From assembly GCA_030841085.1 (NCBI GenBank), contig JAVEDP010000036.1, forward strand, positions 124,001 through 188,000: DNA of 64,000 nt. Direction: 5' to 3'. The position numbers and the translations under genes were made by a program. The stretch is from Pyrinomonadaceae bacterium. GTDB lineage: Bacteria; Acidobacteriota; Blastocatellia; Pyrinomonadales; Pyrinomonadaceae. Of this stretch, positions 10,411 through 15,823 are shown in pieces. Numbering within the stretch: the first letter of the stretch is position 1; the number at the start of each line of letters is the position of its first letter. The notes beneath the pieces are model-generated. The model saw only the letters and a program-made list of their open reading frames with translations, was not told the DNA's origin and made no database searches.

Positions 10411-10567
10411 TTTCCAATAGAAACGTCGTTGTCCGGCGTCCAGTTCCTTTTAGACGGGCCGCCGGAGCAATCAGTTGCGAGTCGCGTCCACAATTGAAAC
10501 GTATACGGTAGCACTTTGGCCCGCAAGTGCCCAAAGTGTGCGATTTTCATGTGGTGGGCAAGTTTGA

Positions 10568-10625
10568 TGTCCGATAAGCTTTTAGCTGTCGTAACGCCGC
10601 GACAAACCCAAAAGTTTATTGGACA
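10568..10625. repeat. Dispersed palindromic repeat, family P2, copy 1
   Basis: TGTCCGATAAGCTTTTAGCT and the facing AAAGTTTATTGGACA form a long hairpin with TAACGCCG-type loop sequence. A better-matched copy lies at 23603-23658. It is placed in the divergent gap between the TonB-like gene and the helicase. The rest of the 10411-10703 gap shows only a plain AT-poor leader. Confidence 0.75.
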
Positions 10626-10703
10626 GATGGAATGAAACTTAACGCACCGCCGATTTCGTCGCGGCGGCGTAGTGACTAAAAGACAGCATCGTGTTGGAGT
10701 AGA

Positions 10704-11576
10704 ATGCGCGCAATGCGACCAGGCGACAATTCAAGAGGCGGCCGACGCAGCAAGCGATTCGCGGACAAGGACAACAATCGCCGGCGTCAGGCGCGCGAAG
10801 ACCCGGCACAACAGTCCGGCGCGTCCGACGACAACAAGGCCCAAGCCCGTTTGCGTGAAGCGCGCCAACTGCTGGCCGGTATTGGCACGCCGCCCGTTCA
10901 ACCTTTTAGGCCGGATCGTTTTCAGCTCGACGCTTTGGCCGCCCTCGAATTTGAAGATGTGCTGGTGACGGCGCCGACAGGCAGCGGCAAAACGTGGATT
11001 GCACGCGAAGAAATTCGGCGCTTGCTCGCGGCTGGACGGCGCGCCTGGTACACGACGCCGCTGAAAGCATTGACTAACTCGAAGTACCAGGAGTTCAGCG
11101 AGGAGTTTGGCGCGGCGCAGGTAGGAATTCTTACGGGCGATCGCAAAGAAAATACTGACGCGCCTTTGATCGTGGGCACGACCGAGATTTTTCGCAATCA
11201 GTTGTTTGACTCTTTGCGCGGTGGCAACGATGTCGATGCGGATCTGGTCGTGCTCGATGAAGCGCACTATCTCGCTGATGAAGATCGCGGGCATGTTTGG
11301 GAAGAGGCGATCATTCTGACGCCGCCGCGCATTCGTTTGCTGTTGTTGTCGGCGACGATCGGCAACGCGGAACAATTTGCGGCTTGGATTGAAGAGGTGC
11401 GCGGCGTGCGCTGCGGAGTGATAACACGTCCGGGCGCGCGTCCGGTGCCGTTGCGTGCGGCGATGCTGCTACCGGACAAGCGACTGCTGGCGCTGGTGAA
11501 TGAACACGGAAAGTTGAATCCGGAGATAGCGGCGCTGATGGGAAGTCAAAAGGAAAAAGGAAAAAGGCAAAGGTGA
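10704..11576 (+). CDS. Ski2-like DEAD/DEAH helicase, N-terminal half (split gene)
   Basis: First RecA-like domain of a superfamily 2 helicase. Motif I is TAPTGSGKTWIARE, motif Ia TTPLKALTNSKY, motif II DEAHYLADEDRGHVWEE (the Ski2/Mtr4 style) and motif III LLSATIGNAEQF. A basic, low-complexity N-terminal 45 residues precedes it. The helicase sequence runs to about residue 280 (IAALMG). The last ten codons (SQKEKGKRQR) come from the left arm of a repeat element, then TGA. The second RecA domain continues in the same frame at 12084. It is known from the family that both RecA domains are needed for activity, so this half alone is probably inactive. Confidence 0.85.
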   Translation: MRAMRPGDNSRGGRRSKRFADKDNNRRRQAREDPAQQSGASDDNKAQARLREARQLLAGIGTPPVQPFRPDRFQLDALAALEFEDVLVTAPTGSGKTWIAREEIRRLLAAGRRAWYTTPLKALTNSKYQEFSEEFGAAQVGILTGDRKENTDAPLIVGTTEIFRNQLFDSLRGGNDVDADLVVLDEAHYLADEDRGHVWEEAIILTPPRIRLLLLSATIGNAEQFAAWIEEVRGVRCGVITRPGARPVPLRAAMLLPDKRLLALVNEHGKLNPEIAALMGSQKEKGKRQR

Positions 11577-12083
11577 GGAAAGCAAGGAATAGAGAGCGGC
11601 TTGGGAAATGAAGAGATAGAGCTACGCATAGGATAGAAGAAGAAGTATGGGAAGGGCGGAACGACATGAAAGACATTAGAGAGCGCACTTTCGACTTTGC
11701 CCTCAGAATAATTAAGTTGTGTCAGCAATTGGAGGAAGAAGGTGGGGTAAGTCGAACGCTTGGCTGGCAACTGTTGCGGTCCGGAACATCGATCGGGGCA
11801 AATGTTGAGGAGGCGCAAGCGGGCCAAAGTAAGCTGGACTTCATTAGTAAGAACGCGATCGCGTTAAAAGAGGCACGCGAGACAATTTACTGGTTGCGGT
11901 TAGTGGGGGCTTCAAATGCAATTCGAAAAGAGCGTTTATCTCCACTTCTAGGCGAGGCAGACGAACTTGCTCGAATAATCGGTGCCATCATTGTCTCGGC
12001 GAAGAGAGGAAAAAAATAAACGCGGAATAGGGGAAAGCGTTCGTGTCCTATCCTTTTGCCTTTTTCCTTTTGCCATTTTCCTT
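11546..12083 (+). mobile_element. Intervening-sequence-like element inside the helicase gene
   Basis: The element is bounded by facing purine/pyrimidine arms: AAAAGGAAAAAGGAAAAAGG near 11549-11568, and TTTTGCCTTTTTCCTTTTGC near 12053-12072. Between them lies the four-helix-bundle gene 11666-12019. The helicase frame is the same on both sides. The interval 11544-12083 is 540 nt, a multiple of three, so exact removal would rejoin residues 1-280 with the C-terminal half. This layout (stem enclosing a TIGR02436-type gene) is that of 23S rRNA intervening sequences, here in a protein gene. Confidence 0.75.
11666..12019 (+). CDS. Four-helix-bundle protein, 23S rRNA intervening-sequence (IVS) family
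   Basis: The 117 residues match the IVS/S23 (TIGR02436) pattern: an N-terminal FDFALRIIKLCQQLEEEGG, then LLRSGTSIGANVEEAQAGQS (the family hallmark), then ALKEARETIYWLRLV. These proteins form pentameric four-helix bundles related to the Avd accessory protein of diversity-generating retroelements and are often encoded inside rRNA insertions. No molecular function is established. Here the gene sits between inverted repeat arms within a helicase gene. No reverse transcriptase is present in the window. The ATG is preceded by GGAAGGGCGGAACGAC. Its reading frame differs from that of the helicase halves. Confidence 0.9.
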   Translation: MKDIRERTFDFALRIIKLCQQLEEEGGVSRTLGWQLLRSGTSIGANVEEAQAGQSKLDFISKNAIALKEARETIYWLRLVGASNAIRKERLSPLLGEADELARIIGAIIVSAKRGKK

Positions 12084-13949
12084 ATGAAACTCAGCATGCC
12101 AGAGATGCCGCCCGCAACTTTGCTAACGGCACTCGGAAGTTACAACCTCTTGCCTGCGATCGTGTTCTTGCCGACGCGACGCCGTTGCGATCAAGCGGCG
12201 TCAGAAGCAGCCTTCCTGCGCCGCGACCCAAGCGATCCGCGGCGCGAGCAACGGCGCGACCTGCTGCGCAGCTTTGTCGAACAGTATCCCGAGATTCGCA
12301 GCCATCGCCATTGGGAAACAATCGTGCGAGGTGGTGTCGCCGCCCATCACGCGGGCCATATGCCTGCGTGGAAGTTAGTTATCGAAAAGATGATGAGCGC
12401 GGGATTCCTTGATGCCATCTTCGCGACCGCCACCGTTGCCGCGGGAGTTGATTTTCCGGCACGCACGGTCGTGCTAAGCGGCGCCGAAGCGCGCACTGGA
12501 AACGGGTGGCGACAATTGACCGCTTCCGAGCTGCAGCAGATGACCGGACGCGCCGGCCGGCGTGGACGCGACAATGTCGGTTTCATCGTTGCGGCTCCGG
12601 GTCTGCATCAGGATCCGGAAAGAATCGCGACGCTGTTGCGATCGCCGCCCGATCCGTTGGTCAGTCAGTTTCGCGCGACTTACAACACGCTGCTCAATCT
12701 GCTGGATGCTTACGGAAACTTTGCGCAGGTGCGCGAGATCGCCGAGAAGAGCTTTGCGCATCGCGAAGCCGCGGGCCAAATTATCGCGCTGGAAAAAGTA
12801 ATCGTCGAAACGGGCCAGCGGATCGAGTTGAAATTGCGCGAAGCGAATTGCGAGCTGTCCGTTAACGACGTGAGGGGATTTGAAAGATTGGTGAGCGCTC
12901 GCACGCAATTGCTCGATTCGAAACCACAATCTCGCGCGGAAGTCCTTCATCGCTGGCTGGACGAAGTGGTCCAGTCGGGACGGGTCGTTGCGATTGGGCG
13001 AAGTGGCAAACGGCTGGTAATGGTGACTGAGAAGCGCGACGGAAATGTGCGCGGGTTGCGCGAAGACGGACGCAGCGCGAGTTTTGCTCTCGAACGCATC
13101 GGCCGTGTCTATTCGCCATTTTATCGTCTGAAAGAAGAACTGATCGAAGAAGCGTTTGAAGAAATTCGCCGCCGCGGAAAAGAGCTTGTGATTGCTGAAC
13201 CGCGTTTGCGCGATGCACAGGACGAAGAAAGCGGCGCGCTCAACCTGCTGGACGAGTTGATCGACAAAATCATTCCGCCCGAAATCATAGAGCAGAAGCG
13301 GCAGAGTTGCGCCGAGGCGCTTTGGGGACTGCTCAGCGCCGCAGAAGATCTCGAGCGGGCGACTCGTCGTACCGAGAACATTCGAGAACAAGTTTGGCAG
13401 CCATTCGCTCAACGGGCGCGCGTTTTGTCGTCATTTGGTTATCTCGACTTCGAAGCGGAAAAAGTAACGGAGCGCGGAAGTTGGCTGGCGGATTTGCATA
13501 TCGATCGGCCATTGATAATCGGCGAGGCCCTGCAAGCTGGGCTGTTCACCTCGCTCGATTTTGTCCGCACCGCTGCAATCGTCGCTGCGCTGACGGCCGA
13601 TGATGACCGGGATTATGGCGCGCTGGAATTGGAAGACGCATTGGTGAATAGTCTGGCGCAGTTTGAGGAAATCGGGTTTCGCGTTTCTTCGGAAGAGTGG
13701 AAGGCCGGCGTTGAGCCTACGCCGGAACTAAATTTTTCTGCTGCAGCGACTGCCGCGCGTTGGGCCAGTGGGACCGAATGGACCACGTTGGTGCGGGAGA
13801 CGCGCGCCGAAGAAGGCGATCTGTTTCGCATGCTGTCGCGCACCGGCGAGGCACTATTGCAGGTTGCCGGCCTGCGGAAAGCGCATCCTGAAGCCGCGCG
13901 CATCTCCGCGATTGCCGCGGATGCAATTCTGCGCGAGCCGGTGAGATAG
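12084..13949 (+). CDS. Ski2-like helicase, C-terminal half (split gene)
   Basis: Second RecA domain and accessory region of the helicase begun at 10704. It contains NLLPAIVFLPTRRRCDQAA, VAAHHAGHMPAWK (motif IV/Va region), TATVAAGVDFPARTVVL and motif VI QMTGRAGRRGRD, then a long helical C-terminal part (about residues 200-620) with the Ski2-type arch/ratchet composition. The ATG at 12084 is the first codon after the repeat arm and has no clear ribosome site. The open frame reaches back to 11982, but those codons are element sequence. It may be made by re-initiation or be a remnant. Joined to the first half it would give about 901 residues. Confidence 0.8.
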   Translation: MKLSMPEMPPATLLTALGSYNLLPAIVFLPTRRRCDQAASEAAFLRRDPSDPRREQRRDLLRSFVEQYPEIRSHRHWETIVRGGVAAHHAGHMPAWKLVIEKMMSAGFLDAIFATATVAAGVDFPARTVVLSGAEARTGNGWRQLTASELQQMTGRAGRRGRDNVGFIVAAPGLHQDPERIATLLRSPPDPLVSQFRATYNTLLNLLDAYGNFAQVREIAEKSFAHREAAGQIIALEKVIVETGQRIELKLREANCELSVNDVRGFERLVSARTQLLDSKPQSRAEVLHRWLDEVVQSGRVVAIGRSGKRLVMVTEKRDGNVRGLREDGRSASFALERIGRVYSPFYRLKEELIEEAFEEIRRRGKELVIAEPRLRDAQDEESGALNLLDELIDKIIPPEIIEQKRQSCAEALWGLLSAAEDLERATRRTENIREQVWQPFAQRARVLSSFGYLDFEAEKVTERGSWLADLHIDRPLIIGEALQAGLFTSLDFVRTAAIVAALTADDDRDYGALELEDALVNSLAQFEEIGFRVSSEEWKAGVEPTPELNFSAAATAARWASGTEWTTLVRETRAEEGDLFRMLSRTGEALLQVAGLRKAHPEAARISAIAADAILREPVR

Positions 13950-13964
13950 AAGTGGAAGTGCAGC

Positions 13965-14162
13965 TTCGGCTTTGCCGTCTGATGTGCGGCGGTGGCTATG
14001 CCCCGCCGTAGAGGTGCCTTGTACAATTTGGGCTATGCCCTGGTGCGGCCTTTGGCCTAATAAGTCCGAATGCCAAGTCGGGATCAAGGGCATAGCCCGG
14101 GAATAACCTAGCCGCTGTCGGCGGGGCATAGCCACCGCCGCACATCAGACGGCAAAGCCGAA
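13965..14162. repeat. 198-bp element with 44-bp perfect inverted arms
   Basis: Bases 13965-14008 are the exact reverse complement of 14119-14162 (44 of 44). Nested inside, GGGCTATGCCCT (14030) faces AGGGCATAGCCC (14087), so the whole would fold as a two-tier hairpin. It lies between the helicase stop and an MFS gene and carries no open frame of note. The perfect arms suggest recent insertion or active correction. Confidence 0.9.
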
Positions 14163-14212
14163 CTTGACGTGGCCAGCGACTCTTGAGGGAACGCTGGTAG
14201 CTCGCTAACTAT

Positions 14213-15823
14213 ATGGCGAATGTGATCAAAGGGCCCTGCGACGAAGCAATCATCCTGTCGCGTAAATCTGCCGCGCCCTGCGCCAAAGGCCAGGAGCGTT
14301 GGATTCTGGCGGCAACCATTCTGGCCTCAAGCATGGCCTTCATCGACGGCACAGTCGTCAACGTCGCGCTGCCATCTCTACAACAAAATCTACAAGCGAC
14401 CGCGATTGGCGTGCAGTGGGTCGTCGAAGCCTATTCACTATTTCTTTCGGCGCTGTTGTTGGTTGGCGGATCGCTGGGTGATCACTACGGGCGCAAACGA
14501 ATCTTCTTGATTGGAGTTGTAGTCTTTGCGATCGCCTCGGCCTGGTGCGGCATCGCGCCGGACATCAACCACTTGATTATCGCACGCGCCGTGCAGGGTA
14601 TCGGCGGCGCGTTGTTGGTTCCGGGCAGTCTTGCGATCATTAGCGCCTCATTTTCAGAAGAGAAACGAGGGAAGGCGATTGGTACCTGGTCAGGCTTTTC
14701 CGCGATTACGACGGCCATTGGTCCCGTGCTGGGCGGCTGGCTGGTCCAACATGTTTCCTGGCGCGCGGTGTTCTATCTCAATCTTCCAATAGCCGCGGCG
14801 GTCGTCCTGATTTCGTTGTGGCATGTTCCGGAAAGCCGCGACCGAGAGACGACCGGGCGAATTGATTTGAAGGGCGCATTGCTCGCAACGATCGGATTGG
14901 GCGGCGTGGTCTTCGGCTTGATCGAATCGTCACGCGCCGGCTTTTTCGAATGGCGAGTTCTTGTCGCGACCGGCGCGGGCCTGCTTTCGTTAGCGGGGTT
15001 CGTGTTTGTCGAAACGCGCGTGAAGTCGCCGATGCTGCCGTTGAAGCTGTTTCGTTCGCGAAACTTTTCCGGCACTAACATCCTCACGCTTTTACTTTAC
15101 TTTGCGCTGGGGGGCGCGCTTTTTTTCCTGACTCTCAACCTGATTCAGGTGCAGGGCTTTTCGCCTACGGCTGCGGGCGCGGCCTTTTTGCCGTTCGTAT
15201 TCATCATGTTTGGGCTTTCGCGTTGGTCCGGGGGATTGGTCGCGCGGTTCGGTCCGCGACTGCCGTTGTTGGTTGGACCAACAATCGCGGCCGCGGGCTT
15301 TGCGCTTTTTTCAATTCCGGGTACTGGCGCACATTACTGGTCAGGTTTTTTTCCGGGCGTGGTGGTGTTGGGCCTCGGCATGGCAATCAGCGTGGCGCCG
15401 CTGACTACGACCATCATGAGCTCGGTGCCCCAGTCACAGGCGGGCGTAGCTTCCGGAATAAATAACGCTGTCTCTCGCACCGCCGGCTTGCTCGCGATCG
15501 CTGTGCTCGGCGTCGTCATGCTGCAAGTGTTTAGCAGTGGACTTAAAAATCGCCTGGCTTCGCTCAATATTTCAGATCAAACCCGCAATGGGATTTACGA
15601 GCAGCGTATCAAGCTGGGCGGCATTAATGTCGAGGAAGCCACAGCCCATCCTTCAGGGCAAGCACCAACGAATGAAGAAGCGAACAGGCAAGCTATTGAA
15701 CAGGCAATCAAAGACTCGTTCGTTTCGGGCTTCCGGACCATTATGTTGATCGCCGCAGCCATGGCCCTGGCCAGCACATTCAGCACCTGGCTATTGCTCG
15801 AAAAATCTTCCACAAAACACTAG
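14213..15823 (+). CDS. MFS drug exporter, DHA2 (EmrB/QacA) family
   Basis: Proton-driven multidrug efflux protein of the inner membrane. The 536 residues carry about 14 hydrophobic segments. Signature parts are MAFIDGTVVNVALPSLQQNL in segment 1, the loop 2-3 motif A GDHYGRKRIF, motif B-like ARAVQGIGGALLVPGSLAII and motif C AIGPVLGGWLVQ in segment 5. A hydrophilic stretch near the end (about 440-500, with HPSGQAPTNEEAN) lies between the last two segments. The ATG is at 14213. The transcript starts 50 nt after the large palindrome; there is no partner membrane-fusion gene. Confidence 0.92.
   Translation: MANVIKGPCDEAIILSRKSAAPCAKGQERWILAATILASSMAFIDGTVVNVALPSLQQNLQATAIGVQWVVEAYSLFLSALLLVGGSLGDHYGRKRIFLIGVVVFAIASAWCGIAPDINHLIIARAVQGIGGALLVPGSLAIISASFSEEKRGKAIGTWSGFSAITTAIGPVLGGWLVQHVSWRAVFYLNLPIAAAVVLISLWHVPESRDRETTGRIDLKGALLATIGLGGVVFGLIESSRAGFFEWRVLVATGAGLLSLAGFVFVETRVKSPMLPLKLFRSRNFSGTNILTLLLYFALGGALFFLTLNLIQVQGFSPTAAGAAFLPFVFIMFGLSRWSGGLVARFGPRLPLLVGPTIAAAGFALFSIPGTGAHYWSGFFPGVVVLGLGMAISVAPLTTTIMSSVPQSQAGVASGINNAVSRTAGLLAIAVLGVVMLQVFSSGLKNRLASLNISDQTRNGIYEQRIKLGGINVEEATAHPSGQAPTNEEANRQAIEQAIKDSFVSGFRTIMLIAAAMALASTFSTWLLLEKSSTKH

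Follow-up and report, generated by a model that had tools for sequence, protein, structure and literature searches.

IVP proteins (PF05635, TIGR02436) are common and conserved and have no known function, and the heptamer repeats that abound in bacterial genomes have no agreed origin. The IVP protein family itself, the IVSs of 23S rRNA and the occurrence of heptamer repeats in several phyla are already known. The cyanobacterial STRR are dispersed heptanucleotide repeats. According to the accessible parts of the papers concerned, GGGAATC heptamers of Xanthomonas occur as convergent pairs (PMC4692102), TAACTGA heptamers of the Beggiatoaceae lie upstream of start codons and have been proposed to be regulator sites (PMC4679880), and GGACCGG heptamer repeats are found in Geobacter (PMC2700814). 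As far as these texts go, such dispersed repeats resemble the arms described below in being 7-bp tandem arrays of mostly intergenic position. Beyond the IVS of Coxiella, no link of heptamer arrays to IVP genes was found in the literature available to the search, which covered few of the subscription papers.

The closest described systems are the 23S rRNA IVSs with an S23p/IVP open reading frame, which the available sections of PMC4990558 (citing also Ralph & McClelland 1993) report from Leptospira and Coxiella. The same sections state that the IVS stem is cut by RNase III and the pieces are not rejoined, that the Coxiella IVS carries tandem GACAGAT heptamers at its arm, with the RNase III site at the first unit, that mobility has already been proposed for these IVSs and that the IVP protein XCC0516 is a homopentamer. 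IVP genes have also been reported in cas loci and read as CRISPR-Cas-associated, as in Pleurocapsa PCC 7327, where an IVP gene occupies the tight gap between cmr3 and cmr2 (accessible text of PMC3936711, which makes no mention of arms). Homology of Avd (4DWL), an accessory protein of diversity-generating retroelements, with 2GSC is stated in the accessible part of PMC10053308.

An IVP element between two helicase genes

The DNA analysed here (the window) is a stretch of 64,000 nt from a Pyrinomonadaceae bacterium (GCA_030841085.1, contig JAVEDP010000036.1, positions 124,001 to 188,000 of the forward strand). It contains an IVP element on the + strand at 11543–12083, whose left end is approximate (11543–11547) and whose right end abuts the ATG at 12084. 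The IVP gene (11666–12019, +) encodes a four-helix bundle of 117 aa and is preceded by a candidate ribosome-binding site, GGAAGGG, picked out by eye at 11650–11656 (+). Its product matched PF05635 with 73.5 bits (curated cut-off 33.8, E 1.9e-20) and TIGR02436 with 91.1 bits (curated cut-off 24, E 5e-26) in profile searches, which bore out an earlier reading made from the DNA letters without database searches (the sequence-only reading), in which the interval had been taken for an IVS-like element with a TIGR02436 gene.

The protein was predicted to fold into a four-helix bundle (pLDDT 93.5) and matched BT_0352 (2rld) with a sequence-based E of 4.3e-20 and a structural Z of 19.7, and XCC0516 (2gsc) with a Z of 16.2; by sequence and fold, it belongs to the same family as these PF05635/TIGR02436 proteins. 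Avd (4dwl, 8ub7) reached Z scores of 13.3–14.1 at 16–18% identity and a Foldseek E of 0.12, compared with a Z of 12.8 for an unrelated bundle, so that its likeness to the window IVP is one of fold, little above that of unrelated bundles. No reverse transcriptase was found beside the IVP gene; the sole weak match in the genome lay on contig 24, the window being on contig 39, and a genome of the genus with eight IVP matches (G005) had none. Across 16 genomes, a number too small to exclude a relation, the number of IVP matches was not clearly correlated with that of reverse transcriptases (rho 0.43, p 0.09) or of Y1 transposases (rho 0.41, p 0.12).

The IVP gene was the sole recognised gene of the element, in which open reading frame and profile searches detected no transposase. 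Its flanks formed inverted arms (11543–11571 and 12055–12083) of 29 nt with 86% complementarity, the best stretch of which (11547–11567 and 12052–12072) was 95% complementary over 21 nt. These arms had been described as A/G-rich and inverted. Their inversion was confirmed, and their composition proved to be more specific, as they consist of 7-bp tandem units. The left arm (11547–11571, +) reads CAAAAGG, AAAAAGG, AAAAAGG and CAAA, corresponding to units AAAAGGA/AAAAGGC, and the right arm (12052–12083, −) carries units of the same kind in inverted form, reading CCTTTTGCCTTTTTCCTTTTGCCATTTTCCTT on the + strand. In the predicted RNA, 19 of the 24 left-arm bases paired with the right arm, in keeping with the family-typical stem named in the sequence-only reading, while the fold of the whole 571 nt was no better than that of shuffled sequences (z −1.04). 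A group I or II intron was considered and gained no support from Rfam, which gave no match to such RNAs at E ≤ 0.5 within 10500–14300.

The pattern GGMAAAAGGMAAAAGG had three matches in the 4.7-Mb genome of the window (G000), all of them in the two arms of the window element, and one further match among the 15 other genomes of the genus, in G005. The unit is thus a singleton in its own genome and has no visible offspring there, which was counted against a mobile-element reading.

Compared with the 23S rRNA IVSs, as described in the accessible literature, the element is alike in having an IVP open reading frame inside a stem of terminal inverted repeats, in its sense orientation and in its sporadic distribution. 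It differs in lying between two protein genes rather than in an rRNA helix, and in belonging to a set with many copies per genome and different units. Like MITEs and REP elements, which are served by transposases in trans, IVP elements have longer and short copies that share units, but their longer copies contain no transposase and show no visible target duplication, and they end in tandem arrays whose number of units varies.

Mirrored heptamer arrays flank IVP genes across phyla

Seventeen IVP (PF05635) genes were found in the genome of the window, and IVP matches in 15 of the 16 genus genomes, 14 of which exceeded the cut-off. The elements of the window's genome spanned 457–595 nt and shared a common build: a short unit is repeated in tandem on the left and recurs in inverted form on the right, and most copies differ from one another in this unit. 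For comparison with other phyla, the best 80 of 274 relatives were taken by likeness to the window IVP, a choice that makes the comparison a test of that subtype; 77 loci were usable, three being dropped for lack of flanking sequence. They came from Acidobacteria, Cyanobacteria, Nitrospira, Chloroflexi, Planctomycetes, Verrucomicrobia, Deltaproteobacteria, Chlorobi and others. The closest named relative among the 274 belonged to a Pyrinomonadaceae MAG (72% identity). Window-like IVP genes were also detected on plasmids (25 records, mostly cyanobacterial) and in phages (2 records).

An inverted-arm score of at least 13 was obtained at 15 of the 17 own loci and at 1 of 121 control windows placed at shifted positions of these contigs; the corresponding numbers for the cross-phylum set were 57 of 77 and 5 of 692. 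A period of 7 in both arms (at least 15 of 21) was seen at 12/17 own loci versus 0/121 controls and at 45/77 cross-phylum loci versus 4/692. The genus set provided six shifted control windows, which were given no weight, and it includes shared ancestral insertions, so that its arm and orientation counts are not independent. A harder control, because units recur, was made of mismatched arm pairs: its 95th percentile was passed by 43 of 57 own-plus-genus loci (L132, at a contig end, being dropped) and by 41 of 78 cross-phylum loci (without L164 and L180). The best period was 7 in 40 of the 43 own-plus-genus loci that passed and in all 41 cross-phylum ones, and 8 in the remaining three. The loci L020, L128 and L141 have an arm period of 8 bp in place of 7 bp.

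Arms had a median length of 32 nt in the genome and the genus and of 30.5 nt in the other phyla, or about 4.5 units. In the predicted RNAs of the 15 own elements with arms, the left arm mostly paired with the right one, the lowest share being 20 of 36 bases. Matching arms were missing at two of the 17 own loci, L021 having a one-sided heptamer array and L022 none. The arm test also failed at 20 of the 77 cross-phylum loci, which was likewise counted against a mobile-element reading. The IVP proteins of L021 (G000:C9:130165) and L022 (G000:C19:259695) are longer (163 and 158 aa) and have an extra charged C-terminal tail; they are perhaps domesticated.

With neighbours taken from simple open reading frame calls, the IVP gene was in sense with its upstream gene at 16/17 own, 33/37 genus and 58/66 cross-phylum loci with a callable neighbour. 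Between co-directional genes, the ratio of sense to antisense was 11:1, 21:1 and 29:4, respectively. Because the arms are symmetric, this bias concerns the IVP gene. Either expression by read-through or an insertion step based on RNA would account for it.

Repeat units, IVP subtypes and mini-elements

Unit sequences were compared at the 96 of 138 loci that had arms. Left and right units had a similarity of 0.93 when taken from one locus and of 0.42 when taken from different loci, and the more alike the IVP proteins were, the more alike were their units (rho 0.48; none of 500 permutations was as high). This pattern shows that the arms and the IVP gene travel as one, while the agreement between them is in part, or much of it, common descent. 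When 98 of the 114 IVP matches of the genus were classified, the window IVP formed a cluster of its own.

Arrays without an IVP gene were followed through GCTGAGT, the unit of locus L014. Its pattern matched 160 times in the window's own genome, 100 times in G006, 32 times in G011, 22 times in G012 and at most 7 times in each of the other 12 genomes; as the reversed pattern also matched 14 times in G000, 4 times in G005 and once in G002, part of the GCTGAGT count may be background. Sixteen GCTGAGT loci were picked, not at random, among the matches listed, and both arms were present at 13 of them, forming mini-elements 56–428 nt across, none of which overlapped an IVP match. The terminal motifs of L014, AAAGTGCT and AGCACTTT, were both present in 2 of these 13 mini-elements; 8 had one of them and 3 had neither. 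Arrays of ATTGCC were common also in genomes in which no IVP gene of the corresponding subtype was detected, with 56 matches in G003 and 27 in G000. The idea that dispersed arrays strictly require a matching IVP protein in their own genome was rejected: the GCTGAGT distribution fits it, whereas ATTGCC fails the expectation.

Comparison of insertion sites

Two elements of the window's genome, L014 and L018, were 84% identical over 534 nt and lay at unrelated genes. The site of L014 was compared in seven genus genomes that had both flanks on one contig, and its gap measured 43–146 nt, too short for an element; it was filled by heptamer hairpins of other units in G002 and G010 and by another palindrome in G014. 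A second site lies between two genes downstream of L013 (G000:C2 near 188900). The window's genome has an AACAGCA hairpin without an IVP gene there; in G011 the site is occupied by an IVP element with another unit, and in G014 by what is left of one. The interval was short in G010, G015, G003 and G004, the last of which has a different hairpin. Because G011 and G014 share the element there, an older copy may have been lost from the window's genome at this site. A TTAAG-like repeat at the hairpin may be chance. At least 6 of the 17 own copies (L012, L016, L017, L018, L020, L025) lay at the same site in G011, so that movement is not frequent and many copies are old. The site of L025 is occupied in G014 by an IVP gene that belongs to a different cluster (L140).

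In Nostoc, a DNA cytosine methyltransferase gene was interrupted on plasmids of three strains by an IVP element whose arms consist of AATTCGC units (element at 2425–2890 of L282; also L289 and L290), and was whole on three other plasmids. At the insert, 328 bp of the target gene were missing and no target duplication was seen. The arms comprised 4+4, 3+3 and 4+4 units in the three strains, a matched change on both sides. A clean target duplication was not found for IVP elements. On plasmids of Nostoc and Anabaena, an IVP gene lies between cas2 and cas1, antisense to both (L284, L285).

Spread of IVP elements to new sites is well supported, and the window insert is probably a passenger mobile element of the 23S rRNA IVS kind, living in operon gaps. 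The arms and the IVP gene might instead form a post-transcriptional regulatory module that does not move, in which the dispersed heptamer hairpins would be the regulon and IVP would regulate operon mRNAs by binding RNA. Sense orientation and a position tight against stop and start codons would suit such a module, as would the IVP-less hairpins in gene gaps, the copies that have kept their sites in G011 and the proposal, in the accessible text of PMC4679880, that the Beggiatoaceae heptamers before start codons are regulator sites. A fixed module does not lead one to expect that relatives differ at both compared sites, with unrelated units, that similar copies lie at unrelated genes, or that the window unit is a singleton without a regulon, and we consider this explanation unlikely.

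Much less probable still is a domesticated cargo gene flanked by chance by ordinary terminators or MITEs. Short arrays are indeed abundant in these genomes; the units of IVP loci nevertheless match on both sides and follow the IVP subtype, such arms are rare in shifted windows of the same contigs, and on the Nostoc plasmids the unit number changed from 4+4 to 3+3 in concert. Tandem arrays can also mislead assembly, and an artefact may be imagined to have joined the IVP element into the helicase locus; with the same build found again at 15 of the 17 own loci and in many assemblies made independently, some of them plasmids described as complete, and with both junctions fitting the between-gene position usual for the family, this is highly improbable.

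The helicase junction in relatives

The two neighbours of the element are helN (10704–11576, +), the DEAD-domain half of a Ski2/Hel308-like helicase, and helC (12084–13949, +), its helicase-C/DSHCT half. The sequence-only reading had rightly placed helicase domains on both sides, and had them belong to one gene split by the insert. According to open reading frames, profiles and relatives, they are separate genes: helC has its own ATG at 12084, and the last ~10 codons of helN and its stop (TGA, 11574–11576) sit in the left arm of the element. The left-arm codons replace the basic tail that helN has in relatives, with which the window junction compares as a loss of the spacer and about 12–19 codons of the helN end. 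The start region of helC was near-identical in several relatives, and no Shine-Dalgarno-like sequence was seen directly before ATG 12084 in the window.

The downstream half of the helicase was searched for in 59 genomes (the window's own and relatives) and found in 42. Within the genus, the locus was present in 13 of the 15 other genomes, the two without a match being 62% and 67% complete. In all 13, helC had its own start behind a stop codon; the stop of helN was readable in 12, mostly after a short basic tail, and was hidden in G007 by a run of 27 N in the gap. No IVP gene was seen between the halves in any of them, twelve being clear cases and G007 having the run of N; of the 14 genomes in the genus that have the locus, only the window's carries the element at this site. 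In the closest genome, G011 (91% identical protein), this gap contains a repeat of another, REP-like type. The helN–helC gaps of the 13 relatives measured 197, 231, 15, 17, 15, 16, 17, −20, −4, −20, 268 (G007), 2 and 110 nt, three genomes thus having overlaps of 20, 20 and 4 nt.

Beyond the genus, the helicase was split in five genera (G017, G018, G021, G026, G029) and fused in five (G016, G024, G025, G032, G034), and in a further five (G020, G023, G027, G030, G033; loci L050–L053 and L055) helN was not directly upstream of helC, the helC loci of G020 and G030 lying near a contig end. In a tree of 28 of the 30 helicase loci, from which L049 (partial) and L054 (frameshifted) were left out, the fused and the stand-alone forms each made up one strongly supported group, and the genus of the window formed a separate group in which all loci were split. 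In G014, helC matches in two pieces with a frameshift-like break (L054, G014:C7:235828). No match to the helicase locus was found on plasmids.

Because 13 relatives of the genus are split and lack the element, the junction is old and, judged from the genomes compared, the IVP element entered it between two already separate helicase genes. The uninterrupted helicase that the sequence-only reading had looked to in related genomes was thus seen in none of the 13 with the locus. That reading had named relatives split at other places as counter-evidence; such evidence came in another form, as the same split without the insert. The interval 11544–12083 does measure 540 nt, a multiple of three (0 mod 3) as stated, but the shared frame, for which that reading had itself allowed chance (1 in 3), looks like chance, since helN and helC are in a shared frame in 3 of the 13 relatives (computed from the gaps, G007 included). 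RNA processing, re-initiation or loss of function, one of which would have been needed in an interrupted gene, ceases to be called for, as no helicase gene is interrupted. A gene-splitting intron or intein was rejected for a host gene that is not whole in relatives lacking the insert (13 split, one of them with N in the gap). That the element interrupts a once-fused gene with its frame kept by selection can hardly be upheld, for all that 540 nt is a multiple of three and fused homologues occur in the helicase family, given 13 genus relatives that are split without the element, only three of them in frame, and a fused clade that is separate on the tree.

Proposed mechanism and implications

The window insert is probably one copy of a family of small mobile elements in which an IVP gene is enclosed by two arrays of some 4–5 tandem 7-bp units in inverted orientation. 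It probably inserted in sense between the co-directional, separate helicase genes, at the cost of the spacer and the last helN codons, so that helN acquired another tail and stop codon. The element would rely on read-through transcription. In RNA, its arms would pair into a stem of ~20–30 bp that could be cut by RNase III, since the stems of 23S rRNA IVSs are cut by this enzyme and that of Coxiella contains heptamers. By the same analogy, the cut would part the host-gene mRNAs and leave the helC 5' end near its start codon. IVP may form a five-membered ring like XCC0516 and bind the heptamer arrays while the element is present as RNA or single-stranded DNA. We propose that it might do so with one unit per subunit, as the five-membered rings and the roughly five units per arm suggest. 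The joining enzyme would presumably be supplied in trans.

More generally, and as a tentative proposal that we regard as possible rather than probable, IVP/TIGR02436 proteins could be trans-acting, five-membered rings, reading one heptamer per subunit, of a widespread and hitherto unrecognised class of transposase-less mobile elements, which would move via RNA or single-stranded DNA into operon gaps, in sense, and of which the 23S IVSs and many dispersed heptamer repeats of bacteria would be offshoots. Taken together, IVP proteins and heptamer arrays, with unit and protein co-varying, would offer a shared and directly testable explanation for both. For annotation, such IVP genes should not be read as working parts of operons, for instance of cas operons, nor such elements as gene-splitting introns. 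The IVP genes of cas loci, one of which in the accessible text of PMC3936711 occupies a tight operon gap, may be passengers.

Two further repeats lie near the helicase genes of the window, outside the element. Just 5' of helN, an imperfect inverted repeat at 10564–10629 gave a sub-threshold Rfam match to mir-208, which is without meaning. On the 3' side of helC, the region 13955–14170 contains a REP-like palindromic repeat of the GCCGTCTGATGTGCGG type, and a REP-like repeat of this type also fills the helN–helC gap of the closest relative, G011 (L027).
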